From positions 1-30,504 of the forward strand of contig NZ_CP039397.1 in NCBI RefSeq assembly GCF_004803915.1: 30,504 nucleotides of DNA, read 5' to 3'. This DNA is from Duncaniella dubosii. Its GTDB lineage: Bacteria > Bacteroidota > Bacteroidia > Bacteroidales > Muribaculaceae. Numbering within the stretch: the first letter of the stretch is position 1; the number at the start of each line of letters is the position of its first letter. The position numbers and the translations under genes were made by a program. The notes below the pieces were generated by a model. It worked only from the letters and a program-made list of their open reading frames with translations, made no database searches and had not been told where the DNA came from. This document shows, piece by piece, positions 8,441-24,098 of this stretch.

Positions 8441-9187
8441 ATGAAAGCCAAAATTATAGCAATAGCCAATCATAAGGGCGGAGTCGGTAAAACCGCCTCT
8501 GTCGCATCCATCGGAGCAGTATTGGCATCAAGAGGGAAGAAAGTGTTGATGGTTGACTTGGATACCCAAGCCAATCTTACCCGGCATTTCATGGAGAACA
8601 TTCCCCCACGAATTATCTACCACGCAATTCGTGAGCAGCTCAATCTTCCCATCTATCCAATCCGTGAAAATCTCGATATTGTACCAAGTGGTCTTGATAT
8701 GGCGGGAATTGATTTGGAATTACAGATGATGTTTAACCGAGAAAGAGTACTAAAGGTACTTCTCGATCCATTCAGTACCATTTACGACTATGTTCTTCTA
8801 GACTGCCCTCCGGCTCTCGGATTAGTTACAATCAACGCACTTACTGCCGCCAATAAATTAATAGTGCCTATGAAGGCCGATCTCATGTCAAACTACGGTT
8901 TGTCAATGATGGATCAATTTTGCGTAAAAATGCAGGTACTGAATCCCGGCATACATATTGACTATATCTTCTTCAATATCTATGAAAAAGGACAGACCAT
9001 GACAGAAGCTATTGAAACAGATGTCAGATCTAAGTACGGAGATCGGGTTCTTTCCACGGTTATCCGCAAAAATAATGATGTTTCCAAAGCGGCCTTCGAT
9101 TTTACTGACATTGTCAGTTTCAACCCCGAAGCGAATGGAGCAAAAGATTTCCAAGCATTAGTGACCGAACTTGAGAGCAAGCTCTAA
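8441..9187 (+). CDS. parA: ParA-family partition ATPase
   Basis: This encodes a 248-residue ATPase of the MinD/ParA group. The deviant Walker A motif is HKGGVGKTAS (residues 11-20, with Lys12 and Lys17), the A' aspartates are in VDLDTQAN (Asp39, Asp41) and Walker B is DYVLLDCPP (Asp121). It has no N-terminal HTH, so it is a small (type Ib-like) ParA. Such proteins usually pair with a small ribbon-helix-helix centromere protein, and exactly that is encoded 72 bases downstream. Together they would position plasmid copies on the nucleoid before division. It has a clear promoter at 8370-8401, with repeats in and around it that could serve as operator and centromere. Confidence 0.95.
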   Translation: MKAKIIAIANHKGGVGKTASVASIGAVLASRGKKVLMVDLDTQANLTRHFMENIPPRIIYHAIREQLNLPIYPIRENLDIVPSGLDMAGIDLELQMMFNRERVLKVLLDPFSTIYDYVLLDCPPALGLVTINALTAANKLIVPMKADLMSNYGLSMMDQFCVKMQVLNPGIHIDYIFFNIYEKGQTMTEAIETDVRSKYGDRVLSTVIRKNNDVSKAAFDFTDIVSFNPEANGAKDFQALVTELESKL

Positions 9188-9190
9188 TTA

Positions 9191-9253: not shown

Positions 9254-9259
9254 TTTATC

Positions 9260-9511
9260 ATGGCTAAAAATAAAATTTTAACAGTGCCTCAAAACGGGAC
9301 TCAACCGGCAACTATCCCATCGCCTATCGACAACATGCTCGCTGGAACAACCTCAGTAGAGACAGTAACAAAAACATCAAACAAGAGACCAACATCATTC
9401 AATATCGATCAAGAATTACAATCTCGCTTCAAAGCCGTCTGTGCTACAAGAGGCAAATCCATGTCCAGTGTAATCGAGGACTTTATCCTCGGATATATTT
9501 CAGAACAATGA
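9260..9511 (+). CDS. Ribbon-helix-helix partition/DNA-binding protein
   Basis: This encodes an 83-residue protein. A flexible polar N-terminus (about 1-42) is followed by an RHH fold: strand RPTSFNI (about 43-49), helix QELQSRFKAVCATRG, then helix SMSSVIEDFILGYI (about 67-80). This layout resembles ParG-like centromere-binding proteins, whose mobile N-terminus stimulates the ParA ATPase. It follows parA by 72 bases across a repeat-rich gap. Its stop codon overlaps the start of the TPR regulator gene (ATGA at 9508-9511), so the two are translationally coupled. A second role as a cargo regulator is possible. Confidence 0.8.
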   Translation: MAKNKILTVPQNGTQPATIPSPIDNMLAGTTSVETVTKTSNKRPTSFNIDQELQSRFKAVCATRGKSMSSVIEDFILGYISEQ

Positions 9512-11250
9512 TCCTACGCACATTACTATTATTAATTCTCTCACTAACCTTTACCTGCTGCTCCAACAAGCCTTCAGATCTCCGACTTTCAAGAGTAGAA
9601 GGCTTATTGTCTGAATCTCCCAAAGAAGCGTGGGATTCGTTGAGTGCTATTAATTATGATCTTTTATCTGACGCTGATAAACATTACTACGATTTCCTTT
9701 CAGTGAAAGTAGCAGATAAAGCGTATCTTACACATTCCTCCGATAGCCTCATTCTGAAAGTCATTGATTTTGAATTTAAACATCAGAAAAATGGACGCTA
9801 TCCAGAAGCATTGTATTATGGCGGAAGAGTTTATAGTGATTTAGGTGATTATCCTACCTCTTTACACTATTTTCAGGATGCTCTTAAATCTTTGCCATCA
9901 AATTCTGGCAATCAAGAATTAAGATGTAATATATTAAGTCAAACAGGTAGGCTTCTAACAGCTCTATCGCTTTATGATGAAGCAATACCCTATATTCATG
10001 AGGCATTAGAAATAAATCGGCATCTTCAAGATACAACTAATATTATATACGGGTTACAATTATTGGGTGGTACGTATCTTAGGAACTCAAATTATGATCT
10101 AGCTGAAAAATATTTTAAAGAGTCTATAGGTTTTAGTGTTCATCAACCTTCGTATCATATGGCTAAATCAAGGATGTATCTTGCTGCCGTAAAACACAAG
10201 CAGGGAGAACTTGATTCTGCTTTAAGCTATATTCGTAATACATCTGAAGAAGTAAAACCTATGGTACGCAATAGTGTTCTCGGCTATGCTTCTAATATAT
10301 ATTTAGACGCTGGAATTCTCGACACAGCGTATATTTATGCAAAAGATCTAATCTCAAATAACGATCCAACGCACAAAGAAATTGGATATCAAGTACTACT
10401 ATCTCCAGAACTACGAAAATATATAGAGATAGACACTTTAAATCAATATATTTCCGAATATAGAACCATTTTAGAGAGCTTCTATGACGAGAACAATATG
10501 CAACTATCTATTAACCAACAGAGTCTCTACAACTATCAGTTACATGAAAACCAAAAAGCCAAAGCAGAAAGACTTTCTAATATACTAAAGAATTGGATAG
10601 TCGGTTTTATATTCTTAGCTATACTTCTAGTCCTTATATCTCTTTATTTTAAAAATAAAAGTAAGAACAATATCATTGAATTACAACAAGCTTTAGCTAA
10701 CATTGAAAAACTAAAGCTTGAATTAGTAACAAGTCAATTAAAACAATCATCTGATATAGGCCAAACAATTATTAACCAAACAGAAGAAATAGCTCCCGTT
10801 ATTACACATAATTCACCTAAGAGTACAGAGCAAGAACTTAGGGAATGCCTAAAAAAAGAACTTTTAACTTTATATGAAAGTGCTAGTGCTCAGTCATCAA
10901 TCTCCCCTATAATTTTACAATCTATTGCCTACCAAAAAATCCAAGAATACATTCAAGAGGGAAAAACTATAAAAGAGAGTGATGTTCTTTGGAGTGAAAT
11001 CGAACAAATTGTCTTATCTAGTTCTCCTAAATTTAAGATAAATCTCAATCTACTTACATTAGGGAATTTAACTACAATAGACCTTCATACAGCTCTTCTT
11101 ATAAAATGTGGAATCAAACCATCAAAGATGACAACATTACTTGGTAGAAGTAATGGTGCTATTGTTTCGAGAAGAGAAACTCTCTGTATGAAGATCCTTG
11201 ATGAGAAAAAAGGAGCAAAAGTTATTGATGCGATAATACGCTCATTATAA
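9508..11250 (+). CDS. Membrane-anchored TPR regulator with C-terminal HTH
   Basis: This encodes a 580-residue protein. The N-terminal hydrophobic signal ends in TFTCCSNK, a loose lipobox (Cys17/Cys18). Residues about 96-260 form tetratricopeptide-type helical pairs, such as YPEALYYGGRVYSDLGDY and NYDLAEKYFKESIG. A transmembrane helix follows at about 362-381, then a coiled coil (386-412). The C-terminal domain has LHTALLIKCGIKPSKMTTLL and a basic second helix (about 524-565), like the HTH of Bacteroides TPR regulators. The layout suggests that a periplasmic TPR sensor controls a cytoplasmic DNA-binding domain. It overlaps the RHH gene by four bases (ATGA) and precedes the peptide operon, which it may control. 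It is intact here, while the copy at 28220 carries end-of-contig indels. Confidence 0.82.
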   Translation: MILRTLLLLILSLTFTCCSNKPSDLRLSRVEGLLSESPKEAWDSLSAINYDLLSDADKHYYDFLSVKVADKAYLTHSSDSLILKVIDFEFKHQKNGRYPEALYYGGRVYSDLGDYPTSLHYFQDALKSLPSNSGNQELRCNILSQTGRLLTALSLYDEAIPYIHEALEINRHLQDTTNIIYGLQLLGGTYLRNSNYDLAEKYFKESIGFSVHQPSYHMAKSRMYLAAVKHKQGELDSALSYIRNTSEEVKPMVRNSVLGYASNIYLDAGILDTAYIYAKDLISNNDPTHKEIGYQVLLSPELRKYIEIDTLNQYISEYRTILESFYDENNMQLSINQQSLYNYQLHENQKAKAERLSNILKNWIVGFIFLAILLVLISLYFKNKSKNNIIELQQALANIEKLKLELVTSQLKQSSDIGQTIINQTEEIAPVITHNSPKSTEQELRECLKKELLTLYESASAQSSISPIILQSIAYQKIQEYIQEGKTIKESDVLWSEIEQIVLSSSPKFKINLNLLTLGNLTTIDLHTALLIKCGIKPSKMTTLLGRSNGAIVSRRETLCMKILDEKKGAKVIDAIIRSL

Positions 11251-11273
11251 ACATATTACCCCCCCCCATTGAT

Positions 11274-11319
11274 GATAACGGGAAGATAACGGATGAATTT
11301 CCGTCATTTTTCCGTTATC
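11274..11319. promoter_or_regulatory. GATAACGG repeat cluster upstream of the peptide locus
   Basis: GATAACGG occurs in direct orientation at 11274-11281 and 11285-11292, an 11-base step of about one helical turn. It is inverted as CCGTTATC at 11312-11319. The second and third copies form a 9-bp inverted repeat with a 17-base gap, followed by five T residues. The cluster lies 31 bases upstream of a likely -7 box. It could be the operator of the TPR regulator, or a terminator for the regulator gene, or both. A run of nine C residues (11259-11267) precedes it. Confidence 0.5.
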
Positions 11320-11349
11320 ATTTTTCGTCCTTAGCCAACATTTTATAGC

Positions 11350-11357
11350 TAATTTTG
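11350..11357 (+). promoter_or_regulatory. -7 promoter element ahead of the DUF3244-like gene
   Basis: TAATTTTG matches the Bacteroidetes TAnnTTTG box and lies 27 bases before the chosen ATG at 11385. No good TTTG is seen 19-21 bases upstream; the nearest is a TTTTTCG stretch at about 11321-11327. A weak -33 would suit an activated promoter. Confidence 0.45.
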
Positions 11358-11384
11358 GAAAAACACTTTAGATATTCAAACTTC

Positions 11385-11783
11385 ATGAAAACCATTTATT
11401 ACATCCAAATGCTAATAATGACTCTTGTAATGTCATCGTTTCCCTTATCCCTTGCAGCCAACAGCTCAAGTGTTTCTTATACTGTTACATTACAACAGCA
11501 GCAGAAACCGACGAAAGATCACAATCAACAACTAGATAAGGATGGTCAAAGAATGCCTGCTCGTCCTGTCGTTGTCTATATTAGTACAACTGAAGGAGTA
11601 TATAGCTCCTACTTTGACATTGAAGATGTAATATCTTACTCAATACTTGACAGCAATGGTCAGCTCTCATTCTCAACCTATGATGTTTCTGATTTTATCA
11701 ACTATTTAGTATCATGCAATGGTGTTATAGGGATTCAATTAGAATTGGTTGAATATAATCTCGAGGGCTGGCTTCAATTATAG
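11385..11783 (+). CDS. Small secreted DUF3244-like protein
   Basis: This encodes a 132-residue protein with a clear signal peptide (MKTIYYIQMLIMTLVMSSFP, then LSLAA; cleavage around residue 25). A polar Q/K/D-rich linker (about 36-58) is followed by a predicted beta-rich domain: RPVVVYISTTEGVYSSYFD, ISYSILDSNGQLSF, and a final LEGWLQL. The pattern resembles DUF3244, a small immunoglobulin-like exported domain of Bacteroides. I chose ATG 11385 over the in-frame ATG at 11355 because it starts the signal peptide and follows a -7 box. It lies just upstream of the precursor gene, so it may be part of the peptide system, for example as an immunity or chaperone protein. That role is a guess. Confidence 0.65.
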   Translation: MKTIYYIQMLIMTLVMSSFPLSLAANSSSVSYTVTLQQQQKPTKDHNQQLDKDGQRMPARPVVVYISTTEGVYSSYFDIEDVISYSILDSNGQLSFSTYDVSDFINYLVSCNGVIGIQLELVEYNLEGWLQL

Positions 11784-11810
11784 AAATATAACGTTCACCA
11801 GAGAAATTAG

Positions 11811-11823
11811 ATGTACAGTACAT
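11811..11823. promoter_or_regulatory. 13-bp inverted repeat before the precursor gene
   Basis: ATGTAC-A-GTACAT is a perfect 6-1-6 inverted repeat, 38 bases upstream of the precursor start codon, in a 77-base gap without a recognisable consensus promoter. It may be a regulator binding site. Confidence 0.35.
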
Positions 11824-11860
11824 TATAGTTAACCCAATTATTAATCTAAACCTCAAAAAG

Positions 11861-12100
11861 ATGAAAAGAACATCCCTCCTAGCATTAGACATGCTGCAAA
11901 AGGAAGAACTTGCATCCCTTAAAGGTGGCGCCGCCAGCACCAATAAGGTATGTGGTTGCGTATGCGTAGGTCCAGTCACACCTGTTAAGGTAGAACTTAA
12001 CACGGGAAATGACCGTGAACTAGCATCCTCAGATGCAGACTGCACAGATTGTGGAGCATCAAATGCTCATCGTGCCACAAATGAACTTGTAACCCTATAA
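11861..12100 (+). CDS. RiPP precursor peptide, double-glycine leader (GG-Bacteroidales type)
   Basis: This encodes a 79-residue peptide. The leader (residues 1-23) has an amphipathic helix, LLALDMLQKEELASL, ending in KGG, the classic double-glycine site cut by C39 peptidases. It matches the pattern of the 'natural product precursor, GG-Bacteroidales' family (TIGR04149, from memory). The 56-residue core has five cysteines: C31, C33 and C35 in CGCVC, then C61 and C64 in CTDC, separated by a Pro/Val-rich segment. The tail is S/T/N rich. It is followed in the same direction by the maturase, its pseudo-SAM partner and a C39 exporter, which makes the assignment strong. Modification sites cannot be read from sequence. 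A hairpin spans its stop codon. Confidence 0.88.
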   Translation: MKRTSLLALDMLQKEELASLKGGAASTNKVCGCVCVGPVTPVKVELNTGNDRELASSDADCTDCGASNAHRATNELVTL

Positions 12101-12110
12101 GTTCATTTGT
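12077..12110 (+). terminator. Intercistronic hairpin spanning the precursor stop codon
   Basis: ACAAATGAACTT (12077-12088) and AAGTTCATTTGT (12099-12110) form a perfect 12-bp stem with a ten-base loop. It covers the last codons and the stop of the precursor, and ends two bases before the receptor's ATG at 12113. It lacks a U tract, so it is more likely an attenuator, a stabiliser of the precursor mRNA 3' end or a block to receptor translation than a full terminator. The effect would be more precursor than downstream proteins. Confidence 0.6.
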
Positions 12111-12112
12111 CC

Positions 12113-14467
12113 ATGTCCGCTCGTCATCAAATATTTTGCCTTTTGGCATTTATTTTATTTGCTGTGCCAATGTCGGCACAGCAAGATGACGAGCGGCTTG
12201 ACTCTTTAATCAGAACGCTCGAATTAAAAGAGGTTGTTGTCACGGCTAAAAAAATAAGACAATCGGGTGATACAATATCTTATGCTGCATCTTCATATAT
12301 AAGCAAAAATGATAAGACATTAGAGGACTTACTCCGGAAAATGCCCGGTATTGAGGTAAAATCGGACGGACAAATTATATATAATGGACAATGGATTAAT
12401 GAGTTCTATATCGAAGGGTTAGATATGCTTGGCTCTAACTATGGAGTAGCCACCAAAAATATAGATGCGCATGACATTGGGACTGTACAAATTCTTGAAG
12501 ACCACCAAGATGTAAAAATGCTCCAAGGCGTAAGGCGCGGAGCCGCACCAGCAATGAATATACGCCTAAAGCAGAGCGCAAAGGGTATCTGGTCGTCCAC
12601 TTTTGAGGGTGCTATAGGAAGCCAGCCCAATATATCCTGGGACGCATCGGCCTCACTAATGAACTTCAGGCGTAATGCTCAAAATATATCGGTTTATAAA
12701 ACCAATAACATCGGTGTTGATTTACGACCTGAAATCAACGCTCCATCTACATACACATCATCTTACGGAACTGGGATATTATATCCTGAAACTCCATCTT
12801 TATCTAACAAGTACACTTATAGAAACACCTCTCATAGCCTTTCAGTGAACCAGTTGCTGAAACTTAGTGAAGATAAAACATTTACGTTTAATCTAAATTA
12901 TCTTTTCGACAAAGAAAAGCGTAATTCAAATGATGAAACAACGTATTTGTCTGACAGTGTGGCAAGGTATATCATCAAGGAATCTAATTCTTCTGATATA
13001 CATCAGCATTTTGTTGGGACCCATGCTGTTTATAAACTTAATGGGAAGAAAATATACCTCAAAAATACTCTTTCCGCCAATGCGTCTTTTCCAAAAGGAG
13101 AAGGACTAATTAATGATTTAATTCTCCAAAAATTTTCAGCTCACTCAATAAAAATTGATGATGAATTGAAACTTAACTATAAGAAACATAATGGGGGAAT
13201 TGCAGATGCTTCATTTCATATATCCTATAACGATAAGAAGGGATTATTGAATCTGCCTAATAATGAATTTTGTCAGATAGTAGATCAACGAAGCTTCAAT
13301 ATTGACGGAAGTGGCTCCTTGATTGCTCTTTCAATACCACACTTCATGTTTAATCTGAATGGAGAAGTTGATGCAAGTTGGCAACATGCTAATACCAATC
13401 TTGATATTGACAATCAGTCTATGCCTGATGATCAACAAACATGGCAGGTTGGTGCAAGGGTTACTCCAAAAATATTTTGGCATTATGGGCAAAAATTTCA
13501 ATGGCTTATATATGTGCCTGCAGGTTTTATGTATTATAAGTCTGACAATCAAACTTGGAATTATAATAAAACATTCTTCTCGATAAGACCATATTCGAAC
13601 ATAACATATAAACCATCAGACCGGCTTTCGTTCTCACTTACCACAATAGGTGAAGAATCCTTACCTTCTGCCATATCCATTATGGTTCAAAAACGATTTA
13701 TAGACTACCGCACAACCATCTCTAACCCGGGACATATTGAAGCGACAATGAACCGAACACTAAAAACGGCATTCAATGCGAGCTATACAAATGTGTTGGA
13801 TATGCTATTTGGTAGCCTTGCATTAACGTATGTTCAATCGCGTTATGGCAATAGTTCCGGATATGACATAACTGACGATATTATTAATTATATAAGATTG
13901 CCATATTCTACAAATAGCCGGATATGGCAACTTGATCAAACATTTTCAAAAGGTTTTTTCCGATGGAACTCAAAGGTAAGTGAGTCATTTAGTATAGGCA
14001 TGAATAATAGTGAATATTATATCAATGATGAAATTCATGAAGGCAAAAGCAAGTATCTTCGGGCTAAACTTTCATATAATGCGACGTTTACTAAATGGCT
14101 GTCTTTTGAGACCTCAAATGAATACACCCTATCCAAGAGCTTTACAGATGGCAAAGCTAATGATGGCACGAAACATACCTTCTCCAATGCCACGTCCATT
14201 ATACTGTGGCCGTTTAAGCAACTGAATGTATCGCCATCTGTGATGTTCTATAATAATAACTACTCTACATCATATCGAAATAATGTGTTCCTGAATTGCA
14301 ATGTTGAATATACTCTCGGAAACACCATATTGTCACTGCAATGCAGCAACTTGTTAAACAACGATGTTTTTCGAAGGTATAACGACAATGGAATCATTAG
14401 ATACTCAAGCGAGTATCGTTTACGAGGACGCACTATTATGGTAGGCATTAGAATAAGAATAACATAA
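12113..14467 (+). CDS. TonB-dependent receptor-like outer-membrane protein
   Basis: This encodes a 784-residue protein from ATG 12113; an upstream TTG at 12107 is less likely. The signal peptide ends at MSA before QQDD. A TonB-box-like KEVVVTAKK (about residues 39-47) precedes a plug domain (about 50-155) with TLEDLLRKMPGIEVKSDG and FYIEGLDMLGSNY. The rest is beta-barrel-like with frequent aromatic alternation, ending in the strand RGRTIMVGIRIRIT. There is no N-terminal carboxypeptidase-regulatory-like domain. The next gene is a GLPGLI protein, a common partner in Bacteroidetes. Within a peptide operon it may move the peptide or a ligand across the outer membrane, or provide self-recognition. 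Substrate is unknown. Confidence 0.85.
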   Translation: MSARHQIFCLLAFILFAVPMSAQQDDERLDSLIRTLELKEVVVTAKKIRQSGDTISYAASSYISKNDKTLEDLLRKMPGIEVKSDGQIIYNGQWINEFYIEGLDMLGSNYGVATKNIDAHDIGTVQILEDHQDVKMLQGVRRGAAPAMNIRLKQSAKGIWSSTFEGAIGSQPNISWDASASLMNFRRNAQNISVYKTNNIGVDLRPEINAPSTYTSSYGTGILYPETPSLSNKYTYRNTSHSLSVNQLLKLSEDKTFTFNLNYLFDKEKRNSNDETTYLSDSVARYIIKESNSSDIHQHFVGTHAVYKLNGKKIYLKNTLSANASFPKGEGLINDLILQKFSAHSIKIDDELKLNYKKHNGGIADASFHISYNDKKGLLNLPNNEFCQIVDQRSFNIDGSGSLIALSIPHFMFNLNGEVDASWQHANTNLDIDNQSMPDDQQTWQVGARVTPKIFWHYGQKFQWLIYVPAGFMYYKSDNQTWNYNKTFFSIRPYSNITYKPSDRLSFSLTTIGEESLPSAISIMVQKRFIDYRTTISNPGHIEATMNRTLKTAFNASYTNVLDMLFGSLALTYVQSRYGNSSGYDITDDIINYIRLPYSTNSRIWQLDQTFSKGFFRWNSKVSESFSIGMNNSEYYINDEIHEGKSKYLRAKLSYNATFTKWLSFETSNEYTLSKSFTDGKANDGTKHTFSNATSIILWPFKQLNVSPSVMFYNNNYSTSYRNNVFLNCNVEYTLGNTILSLQCSNLLNNDVFRRYNDNGIIRYSSEYRLRGRTIMVGIRIRIT

Positions 14468-14477
14468 ATATATAACC

Positions 14478-15353
14478 ATGAGGATTTTGAATGCACTTTT
14501 AGCATCTCTAATGATGCTTGCCGGGCCTGCTGCTTTAGCACAGGTTACTGTATCGTATGCTATGGATACGCCTACGTTCACCCTCGCGCACGAGGATACT
14601 GATAAGTATGAGACATTAGATACTTGCTATCTTAACGTTTCATACCAGTTCAAGTATCGCAATTCAGAGAAAGACGATTCTTTGAGTTTCGATGACATCA
14701 TGGACTTGCAAATGGGCAGATACTACAACGCTTTCTTTAGCCGTGATTTGCGAGCTCTTGATACACAAAACACGAAAGAACTTAAATCCACAATGCAATT
14801 CTCTACTATTCCTGAGAATTATGTTGGGTTCGACCTTCTGTTCAATCATAAGGACTCACTGACTACAGTCACCAATCGTCTTCCATACACTTCTCAAGTC
14901 ATTGAATACAGTGAACTATCAGAATCACCTGAATGGACGTATATACCAGATGAGATTGCTACTGTCATGGACTATCATTGTCATGTCGCAACATGCAATT
15001 ATGGAGGAAGAAATTGGAAAGTGTATTATACAAATGACATTCCTGTTCCTTATGGACCGTGGAAGCTGAACGGAGTAAAAGGATTGGTCCTTAAGGCTGA
15101 AGACTCTGAAAACAACTTTATTTTTGAAGCTGTAGGTTTGACACAAAAGCCACAACCTATCATTCGCTATGACTGGAGTAGAAAGAAAATGAAGAAAGAA
15201 GATTGGAAAAAATTTGAACAGGAGATGTATAAAAACGCCGGGGCATTCGTCCGAAACACTGGTGCACGCATCCTTATCATGGACAACAGTGAACAAGGTT
15301 TTCATCGTCTCAATGAAGATTGGTCTCAATACTACAATCCATTAGAATTATAA
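14478..15353 (+). CDS. GLPGLI-family exported protein
   Basis: This encodes a 291-residue protein with a signal peptide (MRILNALLASLMMLAGPAAL, then AQ; cleavage near residue 21). The middle carries the family signature: YYTNDIPVPYGPWKLNG followed by VKGLVLKAED (about residues 183-209), where the name-giving GLPGLI is here GVKGLV. The preceding RNWKVYY and the early strands suit the family's beta-rich, probably periplasmic fold. GLPGLI proteins (TIGR01200) occur widely in Bacteroidetes next to TonB-dependent receptors, and their function is unknown. It starts 10 bases after the receptor gene and ends one base before the maturase ATG, so it is firmly in the operon. Confidence 0.82.
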   Translation: MRILNALLASLMMLAGPAALAQVTVSYAMDTPTFTLAHEDTDKYETLDTCYLNVSYQFKYRNSEKDDSLSFDDIMDLQMGRYYNAFFSRDLRALDTQNTKELKSTMQFSTIPENYVGFDLLFNHKDSLTTVTNRLPYTSQVIEYSELSESPEWTYIPDEIATVMDYHCHVATCNYGGRNWKVYYTNDIPVPYGPWKLNGVKGLVLKAEDSENNFIFEAVGLTQKPQPIIRYDWSRKKMKKEDWKKFEQEMYKNAGAFVRNTGARILIMDNSEQGFHRLNEDWSQYYNPLEL

Positions 15354-15354
15354 C

Positions 15355-16773
15355 ATGGAAATAATAAAGTCTGCAGCGGGTCATAATTATATATATGATC
15401 GAAATACTAGTTACATTTCTCTATCTTCTAATTACAGTCCTAAAGAGAACGAGAATCAAGTAAATCCACACTTCGCTAAGAAGTTAGATTACTTAACTCG
15501 TCATGGTATCATTTCTCAAGAAAAGAGTGAAAATAATCAATACCGTCTTTTAACTAAAAAAGATATTGATGATGCAATAATCAATACTCATCAAATAATA
15601 TTAGAAGTAACAGACAAATGTAACCTGGACTGTTACTACTGCGGCTATGGTCATTTTTATGACAATTATGATGCTAGATTAAATAGAGACTTACCTCTCG
15701 ATTCATTCAAAACACTATATAATTATCTGAAGAATCTATGGGAAACATCCTATAATAAAGGGTGCTCTTATCTCCGTATATCATTTTATGGGGGTGAACC
15801 ACTATGCAATTTCCAATTTATTCATGATGCTGTAATGTACACACGAAACAATCCTATTCTGAATAAAAAGATTGTTTTCTCAATGACTACAAATGCAGTT
15901 CTGTTAGACAAATATATGGATTTTTTAGTTGAAAATAACTTTGAAATTCTAATTAGTCTTGATGGAGATAAATTTAATGATTCATATCGAACTTTTAAAA
16001 ATGGGACAGGGTCGTTCGACACAGTAATATCAAATATAGACAAGTTACAGTCCACATATCCGATATTCTTTAATAAGAATATCAAATTCAACAGTGTATT
16101 GCACAATCGTAATTCAGTAAGGGAAGCTAATCATTTTATATACTCCCGATATAATAAACGTCCAATGACCAATGAATTGAACGTTTTTGGTATAGCAAAA
16201 TGTAAACGAGCTGAATTCCTAAAAATTTTTCATTCTAAAACATCTGAGTTTAACTCTATGTCTAATGAAGAAAAACAAGTATATGAGAGACAATCTCCTC
16301 ATATAATTCAATGTGAGAAATGGCTCTTTAGTACCCTCATGAAAACATATTCAGTAAATATATTCGATGCTTTATCTGATAATTTTATTGAATCATTAGA
16401 TTCTAATAGACAAGAGATTCCAACAAAAACCTGTATCCCATTTTCACGAAAAATATTTGTTTCTGTTAATGGTGGTATTTTTCCATGCGAAAGAATTGGA
16501 AACGAATTCAATTTCGGAAACATATCCGGGAATGAACTATATATAAATTACGACAATATAATTGAACGTTATAATCAATTATTTCTCAAGTATATAACTG
16601 CCTGCAAAACATGTAAAGCCAAAGATTTTTGTTCTGTATGCGTTGTATCTGATATAAATGGATACGAGGTTTGTAATCGAGCTAAACCTCGAAATATCGA
16701 AGAGATAATTTCCTTCTTTGAAGCCAATCCTGAAGAAATAAGAGAAATAATAAAAAATATATCTATCATCTAA
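15355..16773 (+). CDS. Radical SAM/SPASM peptide maturase
   Basis: This encodes a 472-residue enzyme. The SAM-binding [4Fe-4S] motif is CNLDCYYC (Cys89, Cys93, Cys96), followed by the SAM-contacting FYGGEPL (145-150). The C-terminal SPASM region has Cys360, Cys378, Cys417, Cys420, Cys426, Cys429 and Cys440, enough for auxiliary clusters. The first 80 residues could hold a leader-recognition domain. The family pattern and neighbours fit the GG-Bacteroidales maturase (TIGR04148, from memory). It would generate a 5'-deoxyadenosyl radical and install a crosslink or other bond in the precursor core. The chemistry cannot be predicted; Cys-centred thioether formation is one option given the five core cysteines. 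The DNA is notably AT rich. Confidence 0.92.
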   Translation: MEIIKSAAGHNYIYDRNTSYISLSSNYSPKENENQVNPHFAKKLDYLTRHGIISQEKSENNQYRLLTKKDIDDAIINTHQIILEVTDKCNLDCYYCGYGHFYDNYDARLNRDLPLDSFKTLYNYLKNLWETSYNKGCSYLRISFYGGEPLCNFQFIHDAVMYTRNNPILNKKIVFSMTTNAVLLDKYMDFLVENNFEILISLDGDKFNDSYRTFKNGTGSFDTVISNIDKLQSTYPIFFNKNIKFNSVLHNRNSVREANHFIYSRYNKRPMTNELNVFGIAKCKRAEFLKIFHSKTSEFNSMSNEEKQVYERQSPHIIQCEKWLFSTLMKTYSVNIFDALSDNFIESLDSNRQEIPTKTCIPFSRKIFVSVNGGIFPCERIGNEFNFGNISGNELYINYDNIIERYNQLFLKYITACKTCKAKDFCSVCVVSDINGYEVCNRAKPRNIEEIISFFEANPEEIREIIKNISII

Positions 16774-16775
16774 TA

Positions 16776-17975
16776 ATGGGACATTCTACATACTTCTATT
16801 TAGAGCCTTATGTTTATATAGCATCTGGTAAAAATGGTATTCTTCTAATAAACATGCTTGATGACAACACTCTAATCTTTAACGATTCAAGATCTGTTGA
16901 CATCATGCAGCGATTATTGTCTTCTCCTAAAAGGACAGTCCACATATCGGAACAAGATAAAACGATTCCTCTTATATCTGATACACTCAAGTATTTCATG
17001 GGAGATTTGATATCTTCTAACATCCAACCTTTACAATTTGAATCCGAGATAAACAACATCTCTGGCATCGATGCTTATCATAAATCTATAATATACTCAA
17101 AATATAACATCGGTTCTTTCATATCAAATTGCACACTACTTGTTGATATGAATAAATCTGACTGTTCGGAATATATCGCTATTCAGTCTGGCTTATCATC
17201 TTGCGCTGAATCTTTTCAAAAAAGATATCCTTATGCGATGAATAAATCTACTATTAAGACATATATACAAGGACTCGTTAGTATTAATCCGAATATAGTT
17301 GTAAATATATGTGGACTTGATATTGATTTCCTGAACGATATAATTGAAAGCTTTAACGCAAGAAATCTAAACATAATCATTTCAGCAACAACGCTCAATG
17401 CTAGTCCAGAGATACTGAATACCCTTATCAACACTAATCTAAGTTTTTCAGTTCTTCTAAACTTACCTATTGATCAAATCAACTTACCTTCTAATCGTAA
17501 TCACATCTCTATTTTAACAAAAATAACCGATAAGAACGATCTTGAGGTATATTTAAACTTGCTTGACTCTGATTATAAAGTAAAGTTTTTCCCGCATTTA
17601 ACTAGTGAAAATCTCGACTTTATTAAGTCTCTTCTTAATATATCTGAAGATGAGTTATTAGGTATCCCTCAAAAGTACCAAACAATTAAGATTAACAATC
17701 TAATAAATAGTAATCTATGGGGAACAATTTACCTATTCTCTAATGGAAATATTCATTACTCCCTTATTAATGATTCTAATAAAATTATAACCTTTAACAA
17801 TCTGTATGATGGTTATAAAGAAGATCTTATAAACGGTACTATCGATTGGATATTTAATCGAAATTATACTGAGTGTAAGAAATGTATGTATCAACGGCTT
17901 TGTCCACCACCAAACTACATAGAACACTATCTAAGGTGTAACAACACCCTAAGATGTCTCATCCAAGATTCCTAA
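16776..17975 (+). CDS. Pseudo-radical-SAM protein of the GG-Bacteroidales system
   Basis: This encodes a 399-residue protein with no CxxxCxxC motif, so it cannot bind a catalytic SAM cluster. It keeps alternating strand/helix segments like a degenerate barrel (for example NPNIVVNICGLDIDFLNDII at 171-190) and a SPASM-like C-terminus: Cys367, Cys370, Cys376, then Cys388 and Cys394, in CKKCMYQRLCPPPNYIEHY. This signature is what I recall for TIGR04150, the pseudo-rSAM partner found with the GG maturase and precursor. It probably binds the precursor or assists the maturase rather than catalysing. It starts two bases after the maturase stop. Its TAA overlaps the exporter ATG (TAATG, 17973-17977). 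Confidence 0.88.
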   Translation: MGHSTYFYLEPYVYIASGKNGILLINMLDDNTLIFNDSRSVDIMQRLLSSPKRTVHISEQDKTIPLISDTLKYFMGDLISSNIQPLQFESEINNISGIDAYHKSIIYSKYNIGSFISNCTLLVDMNKSDCSEYIAIQSGLSSCAESFQKRYPYAMNKSTIKTYIQGLVSINPNIVVNICGLDIDFLNDIIESFNARNLNIIISATTLNASPEILNTLINTNLSFSVLLNLPIDQINLPSNRNHISILTKITDKNDLEVYLNLLDSDYKVKFFPHLTSENLDFIKSLLNISEDELLGIPQKYQTIKINNLINSNLWGTIYLFSNGNIHYSLINDSNKIITFNNLYDGYKEDLINGTIDWIFNRNYTECKKCMYQRLCPPPNYIEHYLRCNNTLRCLIQDS

Positions 17976-20164
17976 TGAAAAAGATTTCAATTAAATTACA
18001 AAAGGATGCCATGAAATGTGGGCAAACGTGCCTACAAATGATTGCTGAATATCATGGATATATTTTTGCTGATAATTTAATTGAATCTCTATGTCCTGCG
18101 ACAAAAGAAGGAGTCTCATTACTTGCTTTACAAGAAACAGCACTATTACTTGGTTTCAAATCAATATGTGCTCGAATGAACATTTGTGAAATTTCAAGAA
18201 TAACAGAACCTTGCATTCTTCACTGGGATCAAAACCACTATGTTGTTCTAGTTGAAATTAAGAAAAATGGCTCCTATTATAGAATAGCAGATCCAAAAAA
18301 AGGTATATCTACATGCACTAGAGATGAGTTTTTACAACATTGGATAAGCACAACCATTAATGGAAAACATAAAGGAGTTGTTATGTTATTAACTCCTACT
18401 GAAAATATTATCAGATACACAACTGAGACTCCTAAAAAACGCTCAAATCGTTTTATCCTAGGTTATATAACTCAATTTCGTAAATATTTCACACAGATTA
18501 TCCTCGGTCTGGGTCTCGGGTGTGTGCTTCAGTTAATCATGCCGTTCCTGACACAGGCCATTGTAGATGTGGGTATAAGGCATATGGACATAGGTTTCAT
18601 CTGGCTCATACTACTCGGAGAACTGATGATTGTAGTGGGCAGGACTGCCACGGATTTTATCCGGCGATGGTTACTGCTCCACATTTCCATGCGAATCAAC
18701 ATCTCTCTTGTAAGCGATTTCTTCATAAAGTTGCTGAAATTACCCATGTCGTTCTTTGACACAAAATTAATGGGAGATTTGCTACAACGGATTGGAGATC
18801 ATACCCGTGTACAGAACTTCCTCACTGGTCAGGTGCTTAACATCATTTTCACATTCCTAAGCTTCATAATCTTCGGCATTGTTCTCTTCTTTTATAATCC
18901 TCTTATTTTCGGAATTTTCGTCACCGGAAGCGTTTGTTACGGACTATGGATAACCTCTTTTTTGAAAAAGCGCAAGGTCCTCGACTATGAACTGTTTGAA
19001 CAGCAGGCAAAGAATCAGAACAAGACCTATCAGCTAATCACTTCCATGCAAGAGATAAAATTGCAGGACTGTGAGCGCCGCCGCCGTTGGGAATGGGAGG
19101 ATACGCAAGCTGACCTCTTCAGTGTACAGATGAAATCGCTTAAACTCCAACAGACACAAGAAGCCGGCTCTATTTTTATCAATGAGGTAAAGAATATAAT
19201 GATTACAGTGCTTGCGGCCACCGCTGTGATAAATTCTCAGATGACACTCGGAGCCATGCTTGCTGTGCAGTATATCATCGGGCAGCTCAACTCTCCGGTG
19301 GAGCAGTTCATGTCGTTCATCTATTCTCTACAGGATGTGAAGATTTCACTTGAACGCATTAATGAAATTCATGAGGGGAGAAATGAAGAATCCGACGGCA
19401 ATCAGGTATCAAAGTTCGATGACGGAAAATCCATCGACCTTTCCAATGTCGATTTCAAGTATGATCCACACGCTCTCAAAAAGACGCTGACAGATGTGTC
19501 ATTTGATATACCAGAAGGAAAAGTAACGGCTATTGTCGGGGCTTCCGGAAGTGGGAAAACTACCCTTATTAAGTTAATGCTGGGCTATTATCCGGTCATG
19601 TCCGGCTCAATCTCAATAGCAGGAAGAAACATAAACGAGTATAATCTAAAATGGTGGCGCCGGCATTGTGGAGTAGTCATGCAAGACGGTGTCATATTTT
19701 CAGAATCCATCGCTCGGAACATAGCAGTGGATGATGGAGATATTGACATAGATCGGCTTGAAAAAGCAGCTAGAATAGCCCATATCCATAATTATATTAT
19801 GGGGTTACCTCTGAAATATAATACTCAAATCGGACGCGATGGTGTAGGTCTAAGTCAAGGACAAAAACAGCGAATACTCATTGCCCGAGCAGTCTATAAG
19901 AACCCCGACTTCATATTCCTCGATGAAGCTACAAATGCCCTTGATGCAAAAAATGAGAGAGCTATTGTAGAAAACCTCGATGAATTCTACAAAGGTAGAA
20001 CTGTTGTCGTTGTGGCTCATCGCCTGTCAACAGTCAAGAATGCAGACCAAATTATAGTCCTCGATAGAGGTAAAGTTGTGGAGTCCGGCAATCATGCCAC
20101 TCTTATAGAAAAGAAAGGGGCATATTATAATCTCGTTAAAAATCAACTTGAATTAGGAAATTGA
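17975..20164 (+). CDS. Peptidase-containing ABC exporter (C39 family)
   Basis: This encodes a 729-residue protein. Its ATG 17975 overlaps the previous stop, while an in-frame ATG at 17954 would add seven residues. The N-terminal C39 peptidase has Gln9, catalytic Cys15 (QKDAMKCGQTC), His88 (NHYVVL) and Asp106 (IADP). The membrane domain (about 165-440) is followed by the ATPase: Walker A GASGSGKTT (522-530), signature LSQGQ (626-630), Walker B FIFLDE (646-651) and His682. It would cleave the precursor after Gly-Gly and export the core. Base composition changes near 18500: hand counts give 17 G+C in 18361-18420 but 28 in 18541-18600. This is close to the peptidase/membrane domain border, so the gene may be a mosaic. 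Confidence 0.94.
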   Translation: MKKISIKLQKDAMKCGQTCLQMIAEYHGYIFADNLIESLCPATKEGVSLLALQETALLLGFKSICARMNICEISRITEPCILHWDQNHYVVLVEIKKNGSYYRIADPKKGISTCTRDEFLQHWISTTINGKHKGVVMLLTPTENIIRYTTETPKKRSNRFILGYITQFRKYFTQIILGLGLGCVLQLIMPFLTQAIVDVGIRHMDIGFIWLILLGELMIVVGRTATDFIRRWLLLHISMRINISLVSDFFIKLLKLPMSFFDTKLMGDLLQRIGDHTRVQNFLTGQVLNIIFTFLSFIIFGIVLFFYNPLIFGIFVTGSVCYGLWITSFLKKRKVLDYELFEQQAKNQNKTYQLITSMQEIKLQDCERRRRWEWEDTQADLFSVQMKSLKLQQTQEAGSIFINEVKNIMITVLAATAVINSQMTLGAMLAVQYIIGQLNSPVEQFMSFIYSLQDVKISLERINEIHEGRNEESDGNQVSKFDDGKSIDLSNVDFKYDPHALKKTLTDVSFDIPEGKVTAIVGASGSGKTTLIKLMLGYYPVMSGSISIAGRNINEYNLKWWRRHCGVVMQDGVIFSESIARNIAVDDGDIDIDRLEKAARIAHIHNYIMGLPLKYNTQIGRDGVGLSQGQKQRILIARAVYKNPDFIFLDEATNALDAKNERAIVENLDEFYKGRTVVVVAHRLSTVKNADQIIVLDRGKVVESGNHATLIEKKGAYYNLVKNQLELGN

Positions 20165-20165
20165 T

Positions 20166-20369
20166 ATGGAGGCAGACAAAACTACACATGACAAGATTGA
20201 GCTCCGCTCCGAAAAAGTCCGACAACTCATAGGAGAGATTCCTCCCTCATTAGTCCGATGGGGCATAGCAATCATAACCATTGTTTTCATTGCCCTAATT
20301 GCGGCTGTATGTCTATTGCCATACCCATATTCCAACGGTGAATCCATCCTCCGGCATTTCATCGGATAA
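20166..20369 (+). CDS. HlyD-like membrane stub (67 aa)
   Basis: This encodes a 67-residue protein starting one base after the exporter stop, so it is probably co-translated. IELRSEKVRQLIGEIPPSLV followed by RWG and a membrane helix (about 31-51) closely resembles the first 50 residues of Bacteroidetes HlyD-type membrane fusion proteins, which partner C39 exporters. Normal members run to about 400 residues. Here the frame ends after LLPYPYSNGESILRHFIG. The next 280 bases encode nothing HlyD-like that I recognise in any frame, so this is a truncation or a genuine short form rather than a simple frameshift. Both copies are identical, arguing against sequencing error. Confidence 0.7.
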   Translation: MEADKTTHDKIELRSEKVRQLIGEIPPSLVRWGIAIITIVFIALIAAVCLLPYPYSNGESILRHFIG

Positions 20370-20547
20370 AGGAACATATCTAAATCGACCGTTTTTGAGA
20401 CTTTTCAGCAAACTATCTTCAGATGTAACTATTCATGCCAAACATCGTCTCATAAGCCATCTCAAAATCTACAATCCAAAATAGATCATCTTTACCGAGT
20501 TTTGAAATGGATAGGCATTTTATCATGGTGATACATACCTTACCCAA

Positions 20548-20600
20548 AAAGACATTTAGCTATAAGTGGATAAAAAATCCACTTATAGCTAAATGTCTTT
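20548..20600. terminator. Bidirectional terminator-like perfect hairpin
   Basis: Perfect 24-base arms at 20548-20571 and 20577-20600 surround a five-A loop. It lies 178 bases after the HlyD-like stub and 47 bases beyond the end of the oppositely transcribed antitoxin gene, the end point of both operons. The 20370-20547 stretch holds no gene I can support. Confidence 0.75.
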
Positions 20601-20647
20601 GATACTGTTTCAAAAAGAATATAAGAAGAACTCTTTAGGTTTTCATA

Positions 20648-20959
20648 TTATAATGATACCACCGCAGGAACCGGGATAGATTGGAACTCCATATCCAAGG
20701 CATCCTCAATCTTACAAATTGTCTCCAAGGATAAATTCTCTTTTCCTTTAAGAATCTTGGAAACATATTGAGGGGTACATCCCATTCTTTGGGCAAGTTC
20801 TTTCTGATTGACTCCCAAAAAATCCATACGGTCAAGCATTTCCATAGCTATTTTCTGGGAACGTCGAAGCCATCGGCTGTTTTCAAGCCGATAAATAGCA
20901 TTTTCCCTCCATCTTGATGGAGTTGGAGATGCAAAATCTTCCAATCTTTTTCTTTCCAT
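20648..20959 (-). CDS. XRE-family antitoxin-like protein (second copy)
   Basis: This is the second reading of the gene at 1936-2247, identical over 103 residues, with its HTH at about residues 43-92. It is not an independent paralogue if the contig is a circle read past its start. Confidence 0.8.
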   Translation of the reverse strand: MERKRLEDFASPTPSRWRENAIYRLENSRWLRRSQKIAMEMLDRMDFLGVNQKELAQRMGCTPQYVSKILKGKENLSLETICKIEDALDMEFQSIPVPAVVSL

Positions 20960-21009
20960 AATATATAGCTTTTATCTTTGTTCTATCTTTATAACACTTT
21001 GACAAGCAT

Positions 21010-21561
21010 TTATATCGAGTCCAACTCTATATAATCATCAAAGCTGATGGAATCATACACACTTTCAGCCATCAAGAAATTCCTAACTCTTTCGAGCTTG
21101 CGCAACTCTGCCGCAGTATGTTCTCTTTCTTCCATCTTATGTGTCAACTTTATAGCACCTCCTGTTATAAGGAACTTACCGTCATCAAGTTTTATAGCAT
21201 AAAGTCTCAACCACGACACATGTCTTGATGATGACCTTGGACGAGTCTTCTCTTTATTAAGGACATTCATTCCGGTACTCAGGTTATCCAATGGTCGAAA
21301 TACTCTATTCAAATCATCAACATCCAACATCAAGATTGTTCTTTGTAGAACTTCATTGTCATCTAATGTATCTTGTATTGCCTCATTGATGTTCTCAATA
21401 GCAAAGTACTGTTTCAGATCAGAGGAATGTTCCTGAAAAAATGTCCTCAGCCATATGACATCACTCCACTGGTCGAACAATGTCTCAAGGATATTGTCCG
21501 AGTCTCCATCATATCGCACAGCATACAGGTTGCCGTCTTCCGTTATTTTGTCAAATGTCAT
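21010..21561 (-). CDS. Putative toxin (second copy)
   Basis: This is the second reading of 2298-2849, identical over 183 residues. Its promoter and the palindromic operator recur at 21582-21613 and 21607-21626. Confidence 0.6.
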   Translation of the reverse strand: MTFDKITEDGNLYAVRYDGDSDNILETLFDQWSDVIWLRTFFQEHSSDLKQYFAIENINEAIQDTLDDNEVLQRTILMLDVDDLNRVFRPLDNLSTGMNVLNKEKTRPRSSSRHVSWLRLYAIKLDDGKFLITGGAIKLTHKMEEREHTAAELRKLERVRNFLMAESVYDSISFDDYIELDSI

Positions 21562-21581
21562 TTCTCTAATTTTTATTTCCG

Positions 21582-21626
21582 CAAAGATAGTAAAAGTTTT
21601 TTACCTAATCAACTTATAAGTTGATT
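21582..21626. promoter_or_regulatory. Toxin promoter and 20-bp palindrome (second copy)
   Basis: This repeats 2870-2914: a minus-strand TATCTTTG box at 21582-21589, GTTG at 21610-21613 and the palindrome at 21607-21626. Confidence 0.6.
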
Positions 21627-21715
21627 TTAGTGTATATCCCATCTTTTAACCTGATTAGGCGGTCTATCTAATCGAATATTTTTATATCTTTATACTAAGC
21701 AAGACTACATTAGAT

Positions 21716-22279
21716 ATGATAATAGGCTACGCAAGAGTATCGACCACCGGGCAGAACCTCGATGGGCAAACAGATCTGCTCACCCAATCCGGATGTGAGC
21801 GGATATACAGTGAGAAGATATCCGGAGTTAAAAAGGAGCGTCCGCAACTTGACAGAATGATGGACTCACTCCGTTCCGGAGACACTGTGATAATAACGGA
21901 ACTTACCCGGCTGGGGCGTTCCGTCAAGGAATTGCTCTCAATCATCGAGAGAATACATGAAGCCGGAGCGTCGATAAAATCACTGAGAGAGACATGGCTC
22001 GACACCACCACACCACAGGGTAATCTGTTGCTCACAATCTTTGCCGGACTCTCACAGTTTGAGAGAGACCTCACACGGCAGCGCACAAGGCAGGGACTTG
22101 AAGCTGCGAGGGCAAGAGGTCGTAAGGGAGGCAGACCAAAGTCTGATGAAAGCAAAGTATCTACCGCTCTGAAGATGTACGACTCAAAGCTGCACTCGAT
22201 AGATGAGATAACCAAGGCAACCGGAATCAGCCGGGCAACCCTTTACAGAGCCATCGACAAACGCAAGAAAACAACATGA
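21716..22279 (+). CDS. Serine recombinase (second copy)
   Basis: This is the second reading of 3004-3567, identical over 187 residues, with catalytic Ser9 and a C-terminal HTH. The gene pair gives the 18,712-base period. Confidence 0.92.
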   Translation: MIIGYARVSTTGQNLDGQTDLLTQSGCERIYSEKISGVKKERPQLDRMMDSLRSGDTVIITELTRLGRSVKELLSIIERIHEAGASIKSLRETWLDTTTPQGNLLLTIFAGLSQFERDLTRQRTRQGLEAARARGRKGGRPKSDESKVSTALKMYDSKLHSIDEITKATGISRATLYRAIDKRKKTT

Positions 22280-22397
22280 TTCAGCTTGCTGTCCGGCATC
22301 GGCTCCAATCATGAAAGCGCATCTGTCCTTAACTGGTGTGTATTAGGCTACGCACCTACGGTTTATACGGCGAGCCGACTGTAAGAACGCATTATCC

Positions 22398-24098
22398 CTA
22401 CATTCGCCTTCCCCTGCTTTTCTTCGGAGGTTCCTGAGTCTGTCCGGTTTCCGGCTTTTGTGTATGCTGCTTCCTTTTTTCTTCCTCCTGACGCTGCTTT
22501 ATTCCAAGTGCAGCCTTCACCTTTGCCCAGATATCCCGGAAGAAATCGGAGATACGCTTACCGCACATGGAGATGAACGAGTCTTCTCCATGACCTTCAA
22601 TCCTCACGGAGATATTATCGGCATATTCCTCCGGAATCCTCTTTCCTGTCGCCGGATCCATAAACGGATATTTCTTCCATGTCAAGGTCTGACCCGAAAG
22701 AATGGCATCCTGATAATCCGGATCTTTAATCTCAATAGACACAAGTTCCCTTATCAACCGGGCTTCAAGAGGATGTCTGCGTTCAAGTGCGGTCTGTGTA
22801 CCAGACACGGTCTCCTTCAACTGTTGCAGTTCCCGTTCCGCCTTCTCTCTTCCGGCTTTCTCATGCCGAGTGGCAGCGGCTTCTCTCTCCAGTGCGGTGG
22901 CGTTGCCGGACACGAGCAACTTCAGCTCCGCATTCTCCTTTGCAAGCCTCTCCACCTCTTTCTTGGCAAGGAAACTTATCGAGGCGTTGTTTATCCTATC
23001 CAATGCCTCCTTCTCAACCTTGGCAACCTCTTTTTCCCTGCTGTCCGCCGCCTGAAGAAGACGGTCAGCGGACTCGATGCGATCCTCGGCATATTCTCCG
23101 GCTTCAGTGTAAGTGTCGAGCCTGTCCTGCGCCTTCACTATCAACGGAAGAAGGTTGTCGAGCTGCTGCTGTTGCCGGGCTATCTCATTTTTCTTTTCAG
23201 TGAGTTCACTCCTGGTCTCTTTCAGTTCCTTTTCCTGCTCCCGGATCTGACTGTCCTTTTTAAGAATCTCCCTGTTCTTCTCCTTCACCAGATCCTCCTG
23301 TCCGGCAAGTTCCTTGAGCAATTCGTCCAGCCGCCCGCGTTGCAGCTCGTATTGCTCCTTATAATACTGGGCAAGATCCTTGTGCCTGGCAGGACTTCCT
23401 TCCTCACCTCTCTCCAGTCCGAAAGGCGCCATCGCAACAGCATACTCTGTCTGCCGCCTTTTCAGATCCCATTGGGTCATGACATCATCGGCACACAGCC
23501 GCAAGGTCTCCACTGTCGCCTTTTTCTTGTAGCGGCGTTTCTTCTTCGGGACTTCCTCTCCATTCTTCTCCGCTTTCTCCTTATCCTTGGCGGCTCTCTT
23601 TTTTGTAGTCCTCTGCTTCTTGCTCTCTCCGGACACAACAGGAACAAGAGACACATGAAGGTGCGGAGTCTCCTCGTCCATGTGCAGAACCGCACTCACG
23701 ATGTTTTCCTTGCCATGTTCTTTCTGCGCCCACTTGATTGACTCCCGGCACCATTCCATAAGCCTGCCCTGCTCGATGATCTCAGCCATACCCTCTACCG
23801 ATGCGCTCATGCGGATCTCGATGCAGCATATCTGACCTTTCCGGATCTTGCGCTCGTATTCATTGCCGTCGGCATCCTTCTGATGACGGACAGCATCAAG
23901 CCTTTTCTCGATGGCTGCGCTGCGGCCAATCTCCCGGGCTTCCTTTATAAACTCCTTGTTATGTCTGGTAAGGTCTCTGCGCTTGATGTTGTACGGCACA
24001 TGCTCCGTTCCGTCCGCCTTCTTCCTCTCGATATGGGTGGAGTAGGACACCGGTGGACCGTAGCATTTCTCATAATGGCAGACTGTATAGTGGCTCAT
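22398..24098 (-). CDS. MobV-family relaxase (second copy)
   Basis: This is the second reading of 3686-5386, identical over 566 residues, with the HxxxxxxHxH metal motif at residues 139-148. Confidence 0.92.
   Translation of the reverse strand: MSHYTVCHYEKCYGPPVSYSTHIERKKADGTEHVPYNIKRRDLTRHNKEFIKEAREIGRSAAIEKRLDAVRHQKDADGNEYERKIRKGQICCIEIRMSASVEGMAEIIEQGRLMEWCRESIKWAQKEHGKENIVSAVLHMDEETPHLHVSLVPVVSGESKKQRTTKKRAAKDKEKAEKNGEEVPKKKRRYKKKATVETLRLCADDVMTQWDLKRRQTEYAVAMAPFGLERGEEGSPARHKDLAQYYKEQYELQRGRLDELLKELAGQEDLVKEKNREILKKDSQIREQEKELKETRSELTEKKNEIARQQQQLDNLLPLIVKAQDRLDTYTEAGEYAEDRIESADRLLQAADSREKEVAKVEKEALDRINNASISFLAKKEVERLAKENAELKLLVSGNATALEREAAATRHEKAGREKAERELQQLKETVSGTQTALERRHPLEARLIRELVSIEIKDPDYQDAILSGQTLTWKKYPFMDPATGKRIPEEYADNISVRIEGHGEDSFISMCGKRISDFFRDIWAKVKAALGIKQRQEEEKRKQHTQKPETGQTQEPPKKSRGRRM

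Follow-up and report, generated by a model that had tools for sequence, protein, structure and literature searches.

The closest described systems are those of the families TIGR04148 (maturase), TIGR04149 (precursor) and TIGR04150 (pseudo-radical-SAM protein), which we take to be the group named GG-Bacteroidales radical SAM RiPP, for ribosomally synthesised and post-translationally modified peptide. The locus described here lies in a 30,504-nucleotide stretch of Duncaniella dubosii DNA (Muribaculaceae; contig NZ_CP039397.1 of assembly GCF_004803915.1, positions 1 to 30,504), hereafter the window. It has in common with these systems a maturase over the family cut-off, a double-glycine (GG) leader, a pseudo-radical-SAM partner and a C39 exporter, and differs from them in being plasmid-borne, in its distinct five-cysteine core and in having a short mini-HlyD protein in the place of HlyD. 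CteB-like and RumMC-like thioether maturases also share radical SAM and SPASM features with the window maturase, which matches 5wgg_A and NF035951; however, it reaches 131 bits against NF035951 (cut-off 720), and its chemistry is a prediction. A survey of Bacteroidales RiPP clusters describes the same combination of radical SAM enzymes, GG precursors and peptidase-containing ATP-binding transporters (PCATs), with pseudo-radical-SAM proteins in some clusters; in its main text the word TonB is absent and the word plasmid occurs once (PMC10352776).

Our preferred reading, with a probability of roughly 0.7, is that the window carries a RiPP cassette on an ~18.71-kb plasmid of mobilisable type from gut Bacteroidales, equipped with a chimeric exporter and a mini-HlyD. 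It builds on the families, order and conservation of the genes, the two-part make-up of the exporter, the conservation of the mini-HlyD and the diversity of cargo on related plasmids. An earlier note on this DNA had described a complete peptide system as plasmid cargo; to this we add the repetition of the circle, the conservation of the mini-HlyD, the apparently chimeric make-up of the exporter and sister plasmids whose radical SAM cassettes differ.

The precursor and its proposed modifying enzymes

The cluster occupies a single strand in the order precursor, outer-membrane receptor, GLPGLI protein, maturase, pseudo-radical-SAM protein, C39 exporter and mini-HlyD, with gaps of 10, 1, 2, -22 (an overlap) and 1 bases from the receptor onward, as had been claimed, and 6 bases between precursor and receptor. 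The precursor (79 aa; 11861..12100, +) has the marks of a double-glycine RiPP precursor, namely a GG leader, a conserved small frame and a C39 exporter within the operon. Its leader ends in Gly22-Gly23, and the predicted core (residues 24-79) holds five cysteines. The frame is conserved in relatives, as the earlier note expected: 18 database proteins match at E ≤ 0.01, a 99% near-copy and 17 further. In an alignment of 20 sequences the GG, C31, C33, C35, D63-C64-G65-A66, A69 and R71 are invariant and C61 is kept in 19, so that two conserved core blocks stand out, separated by a stretch varying in length and sequence. If the preferred reading is right, searches for the product could be aimed at this conserved core. 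Of 29 precursors beside such maturases, 26 have a CxCxC-type motif (2.1 expected from shuffled residues; absent from L007, L047 and L086), in a hand-picked set drawn mostly from candidate lists requiring GG or GA plus at least two cysteines, and with the motif chosen post hoc once the set had been inspected. A GGSS..N..AN-type core motif is present in 12 of the 29 (0.08 expected), the window precursor being without it.

Membership of the TIGR04149/04148/04150 trio, proposed before, holds fully for the maturase (472 aa; 15355..16773, +), which scores 384.5 bits against TIGR04148 (E 6.9e-115), over the curated NCBIfam cut-off of 300. The pseudo-radical-SAM protein (399 aa; 16776..17975, +) matches TIGR04150 significantly (100.1 bits, E 1.3e-28) and the precursor TIGR04149 at 19.1 bits (E 8.8e-4); both stay below the curated cut-offs, 250 and 25 respectively, which weighs against the assignment, and 16 of the 20 aligned precursor relatives match TIGR04149 at E ≤ 0.1. 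Although the maturase is below the cut-off of the Pfam SPASM model (17.4; cut-off 21.5), its C89xxxC93xxC96 motif and seven further cysteines, including those of the SPASM region, are invariant in 25 aligned sequences. The best solved relative is 5wgg_A, presumably the thioether maturase CteB, and because of this relationship we infer a product of the thioether type. The pseudo-radical-SAM protein is without CxxxCxxC and adjoins the maturase both in the window and in the closest locus found, L003. An alignment of 17 sequences keeps its C367, C370, C376 and C394 throughout; among 13 closer relatives aligned separately, the first three are near-invariant and C394 is not listed. Its alignment searched against solved structures gave no relative (best E 0.37). 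Together, the maturase and this helper would modify the cysteine-rich core, most likely with thioether links.

In the family sample, 2 of 198 genomes pass the TIGR04148 cut-off. Matches to the window maturase at E ≤ 1e-60 occur in 2 of 397 family genomes and in 20 of 393 genomes of the order sample, the window's own genome being included in all three counts. The closest locus found, L003, from a Bacteroidales metagenome-assembled genome, carries precursor, receptor, GLPGLI protein, a 65% identical maturase and pseudo-radical-SAM protein in the same order as the window. Its isolate name (Lapin) suggests rabbit, and ribosomal-protein-like frames lie near its cluster. Adjoining the orthologous cluster, L003 also has at 2089-5981 a second set of genes, for a different radical SAM-like protein, a GG peptide with Cys repeats and a protein resembling a receptor.

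The description of the system as complete holds as far as the precursor, the maturase, the pseudo-radical-SAM protein and the C39 exporter go; there is no full-length HlyD adaptor within the window and no immunity gene was recognised in it, the latter counting against our preferred reading.

The mini-HlyD, the receptor and export

The mini-HlyD (67 aa, one apparent membrane span; 20166..20369, +) aligns by hhalign with residues 4-57 of HlyD (probability 98.1, E 7.4e-14). It is therefore homologous to the N-terminus of the HlyD-type adaptors of type I secretion, but it ends where their periplasmic domains start and would not be expected to bridge to an outer-membrane channel. A database search that admits lengths of 0.55-1.75 times the query gave 362 proteins, and most of the 120 listed are 67 aa long. 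At E ≤ 1e-8, 22 hits were found in 16 of 99 family genomes; once repeats of two plasmids are removed these are 19 distinct loci, one of which (G055) has a 172-aa intermediate form. A window-like exporter adjoins 21 of the 22 hits (18 of 19 distinct loci), counted in 1.5-kb flanks in which the transporter part alone is visible. When 15 loci were viewed over longer stretches, each had the exporter, that of L139 being truncated where its contig stops; in L136, the one locus without an adjoining exporter, the gene lies ~2.4 kb upstream, and a barrel gene separates the two. The three pairs of the window copy with relatives that have a finite dS gave dN/dS values of 0.01, 0.03 and 0.04, and its four other pairs were saturated. 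Given the 362-protein family, the exporter linkage and the low dN/dS, a truncated or frameshifted HlyD is rejected, and the 'stub' of the earlier note is better described as a conserved short protein. The mini-HlyD loci all come from one family and are not phylogenetically independent, a point against the preferred reading. No published account of a mini-HlyD or of peptidase-domain exchange surfaced in the parts of the literature covered, which is not proof of absence.

In the proposed pathway, the C39 domain of the exporter would cleave the precursor after Gly22-Gly23 and the ABC part would carry the product, of ~56 residues, through the inner membrane. As a reduced adaptor, the mini-HlyD would retain only the transporter-side part, and the product would probably reach the periplasm. 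A different protein would have to take it through the outer membrane; the barrel of the cassette is a candidate for this step because the periplasmic adaptor domains are missing. If this is right, the locus raises the question of how a Gram-negative cell might secrete a peptide when the adaptor of its transporter is a mere membrane anchor.

The barrel in question (786 aa; 12107..14467, +) had been called a TonB-dependent receptor. It is outer-membrane receptor- or barrel-like, with an EVVV box read near its N-terminus, an orthologue in L003 and a match to Pfam Plug; the latter reaches 15.4 bits where 23.9 is the cut-off, so the plug and barrel over Pfam cut-offs that define a TonB-dependent receptor are not in evidence. 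Pfam recognises two of ten of these barrels. With a profile built from 16 barrels, a barrel was found within 6 kb of the exporter at 17 of 19 mini-HlyD loci, at one of three loci with intermediate HlyD forms (165-172 aa; L003, L077 and L089) and at one of 13 with full HlyD (335-445 aa). Four of the loci found lie beyond the barrels used for training. The two mini-HlyD loci without a match, L103 and L139, are cut at contig ends, the barrel of L103 standing at the opposite end of its contig. Several points weigh against a barrel that takes over from HlyD: the 16-barrel profile was trained on barrels nearly all from mini-HlyD loci; a stricter profile of five Pfam-positive barrels found 10 of 19 mini-HlyD loci (six of the ten outside its training set), none of three intermediate and none of 13 full-HlyD loci, and missed the window's own receptor; and window-like receptors also have a full-length HlyD nearby in L006, L076 and L078, and the intermediate HlyD in L077.

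The loci L006, L076 and L078 also favour a conventional bacteriocin operon, in which the mini-HlyD would be an accessory protein, an unlinked adaptor and TolC would finish export, and the barrel would import or sense nutrients. Other Bacteroidales C39 exporters are followed by a full HlyD even where a window-like receptor is present, and unlinked adaptors occur in Gram-negative bacteria. On the other hand, a search with one full-length HlyD gave no match in the 18 family genomes covered and a match in each of six controls from the order, although these six were picked since full-length HlyD genes had been seen near their maturases, and a single query could miss diverged adaptors. Moreover, both exporter-length C39 matches of the host, one on the chromosome and one on the plasmid, have an adjoining mini-HlyD match. 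We regard the conventional route as a serious contender that nonetheless falls short of even odds.

A second alternative concerns role: the cluster could be a signalling circuit and no toxin, its peptide being exported, re-imported via the barrel and sensed by the periplasmic TPR part of a regulator. The putative regulator (580 aa; 9508..11250, +) matches Pfam TPR models and, read by eye, has a lipoprotein-like N-terminus, one apparent transmembrane helix and an HTH-like C-terminus; this membrane-anchored protein may control the operon. Strong conservation of the precursor core, the lack of a recognised immunity gene and the recurrence of TPR regulators (phmmer relatives) near some such clusters would all suit signalling, but the regulator of the window's kind was found in just 4 of 15 extended mini-HlyD loci (L134, L137, L138 and L144). 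A purely signalling function appears unlikely to us on this balance, and under the preferred reading of a RiPP cassette the product may serve in competition or in signalling.

The two parts of the exporter gene

The 736-aa exporter has Peptidase_C39, ABC_membrane and ABC_tran domains, all over their Pfam cut-offs. Its peptidase part (residues ~1-175; 17954..18475, +; Peptidase_C39 2e-23) is AT-rich, with a GC content at third codon positions (GC3) of 0.20 against 0.45 in the transmembrane and ATPase part (residues ~176-736; 18476..20164, +). Compared with the exporter of L130, identity is 24-48% up to residue 175 (24% at residues 151-175) and 92-100% from residue 176; from residue 180 on it is 96%. 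The exporter therefore looks chimeric: a diverged AT-rich peptidase seems fused, at about residue 175, with a conserved transporter. At the DNA level, a blastn match to the sister plasmid L102 covers 8201-9511, stops at the ParG stop codon and resumes at 18590, inside the exporter gene. Because of this break and resumption, we read 9512-~18475 as an exchanged cassette and take the ParG stop codon as the putative 5' edge of the cargo. The cassette would have been joined, within the exporter gene, onto a resident transporter-plus-mini-HlyD unit.

The two parts were also compared among relatives. In a first comparison, which took 13 of the 22 available exporters of mini or intermediate type (78 pairs), the peptidase averaged 42% identity and the transporter 76%, with a rho of 0.015. 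Among 18 of the 19 mini-HlyD exporters (153 pairs; L139, which is cut, was left out), the means were 44% (34-76) and 74% (59-96), with a rho of -0.21. As a control, 66 usable of 78 pairs among 13 full-HlyD exporters gave 58% and 64% with a rho of 0.53; the 12 lost pairs had fewer than 100 aligned peptidase positions, the number that one short exporter would cost, and the figures for 12 full-HlyD exporters are identical. Exporter pairs are not independent, and p-values from them are not probabilities. Averaged over 17 mini-type genes, L003 among them, the absolute GC3 step was 0.096; over 12 controls it was 0.057.

Alternatively, the peptidase was never swapped and simply evolves fast beside a highly constrained transporter. 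Transporter pN/pS of 0.04-0.12, with synonymous sites near saturation in four of the five pairs tested, agrees with this, and an identity floor of ~40% would likewise erase the correlation. The control gene L006 has a GC3 step of 0.26, equal to that of the window, and several mini-HlyD exporters are without a step; both facts tell against exchange. Fast evolution does not readily account for the GC3 step of the window gene, for DNA similarity that starts only beyond the junction, or for the small gap between domains in full-HlyD exporters. The L130 pair, alone among the five, also separates by synonymous difference (pS 0.54 in the transporter and 0.76 in the peptidase; 0.71 for shuffled codons). 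Fast evolution seems the less likely explanation overall, although for exporter pairs other than that with L130 it may hold.

Joint transfer of maturase and peptidase is rejected, as their identities are uncorrelated (rho 0.04), a result that also counts against the preferred reading, as does L003, with 65% identity in the maturase and 37% in the peptidase. If the preferred reading of a chimeric exporter is true, gut Bacteroidales would swap peptide weapons or signals by exchanging the cargo together with the leader-cutting domain while keeping one transporter. A wider version, in which Muribaculaceae-type bacteria possess a reduced exporter whose mini-HlyD has none of the periplasmic adaptor domains, a cassette-specific barrel serves as exit gate and the transporter as landing pad, and cassettes consisting of precursor, maturase, barrel and peptidase domain recombine at the peptidase/transporter junction and spread by mobilisable plasmids, is considerably more doubtful; the window-like receptors near full-length HlyD in three loci make it less probable.

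The plasmid, its relatives and their cargo

Bases 18710-30504 of the window repeat bases 1-11791 with 99.915% identity, no mismatches and 10 gap openings. The contig is therefore one circle of ~18.71 kb traversed about 1.6 times, and a separate second operon at 1-1660 is ruled out, this DNA being the same circle. The two passages differ by indels alone, and the regulator frame of the second (28220-29755) encodes 511 aa in place of 580; single-base length errors in the assembly are therefore likely. The assembly holds this plasmid a second time, as contig C5 (99.97%). Contig C3 is a sister plasmid of ~15.36 kb with the resolvase-Mob-Rep backbone (window 3002-8233) at 95% and different cargo.

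The claim that the peptide system is plasmid cargo is supported by the backbone genes. These encode a ParA-like ATPase (8441..9187, +; AAA_31 3.5e-45; 98% identity on L102), a ParG-like partner (9260..9511, +; ParG 2.1e-6), a serine resolvase (21716..22279, +, also 3004-3567; Resolvase 1.2e-44), a 566-aa mobilisation protein (22398..24098, -, also 3686-5386; Mob_Pre 3.1e-18) and a putative 559-aa replication protein, Rep (25157..26836, -, also 6445-8124), a 34% match of which (H48) is annotated as a putative replication protein. A circle with a relaxase and a Rep, the latter assigned by similarity, is a plasmid of mobilisable type as judged from its genes. The nearest named plasmid by Rep (89%) is CP061010 of Muribaculaceae MF13079 (18,812 bases), typed as mobilizable, MOBV. 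It also has radical SAM and barrel cargo but a different maturase type, and no exporter of the window's kind was found on it.

A megablast search of the plasmid collection with window 8400-20400 returned no match, and in IMG/VR neither Rep nor the aligned precursors found a relative. All 118 named plasmid records matching the maturase are below 60% identity; among the best 30 of them, two are from Bacteroidales (33% and 36%), and one of these two, an 88-kb record, carries ruvB and may be chromosomal.

Of 397 family genomes, 7 have a Rep match at E ≤ 1e-100, the window's own among them. Adding C3 of the host and CP061010 gives nine distinct molecules or contigs, of which CP061010 and G117:C38 are closely related. 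A radical SAM maturase of full length is present on five, namely the window, G057:C3 (522 aa), G043:C40 (426), G182:C25 (431) and CP061010 (452), and a sixth, G117:C38, has a 114-aa maturase piece of the CP061010 type. No maturase was found by phmmer with those five on C3, G147:C57 or G024:C48, the last a short contig bearing a C39-VKOR-thioredoxin protein. Only the window maturase passes the TIGR04148 cut-off; in the best 25 families of each, the other four reach no curated cut-off save that of the general SPASM domain model (two of them). Radical SAM cassettes of other kinds are thus present on some further plasmids of this backbone. Exporter and mini-HlyD occur together on four of the nine (window, G057:C3, G043:C40 and G182:C25) and a barrel-like protein on six. 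Five of these barrels match the five-barrel profile, those of CP061010 and G117:C38 lying outside its training set; the window is the sixth.

The remaining genes of the window are less distinctive. The GLPGLI protein (291 aa; 14478..15353, +) scores 115.2 bits against TIGR01200 (cut-off 50). Ahead of the precursor, a small protein of 132 aa (11385..11783, +) has a signal-like N-terminus read from its residues and matches no family over cut-off; upstream of its gene, what we take to be a Bacteroidales -7 motif is located at 11350, and TTTG was not found in the 32 bases preceding it. On the minus strand, an HTH protein (103 aa; 20648..20959, -; HTH_3 5.2e-12) adjoins a 183-aa protein (21010..21561, -) with no Pfam family at E ≤ 0.01, and the two (20648-21561) are possibly a stability pair.

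Further small peptides accompany the sister cargo. On L102, a 72-aa GG peptide with repeated SSGAGQ-like units (11757-11975) precedes a 522-aa radical SAM/SPASM protein; this cargo has no NCBIfam match at E ≤ 0.001. The sister plasmid L105 encodes a 76-aa GG peptide (7094-7324) with a ThiF-like gene nearby (9118-9873). Without a radical SAM gene, the cargo of L012 (G000:C3; 8339-12175) comprises a TPR regulator and two further proteins, one of 139 aa that looks secreted and one of 282 aa that resembles a lipoprotein; it is possibly another secreted-peptide system. Finally, L107, a short contig of the same Rep family, has a C39-VKOR-thioredoxin fusion adjoining a 91-aa Cys-containing peptide (1562-5104).

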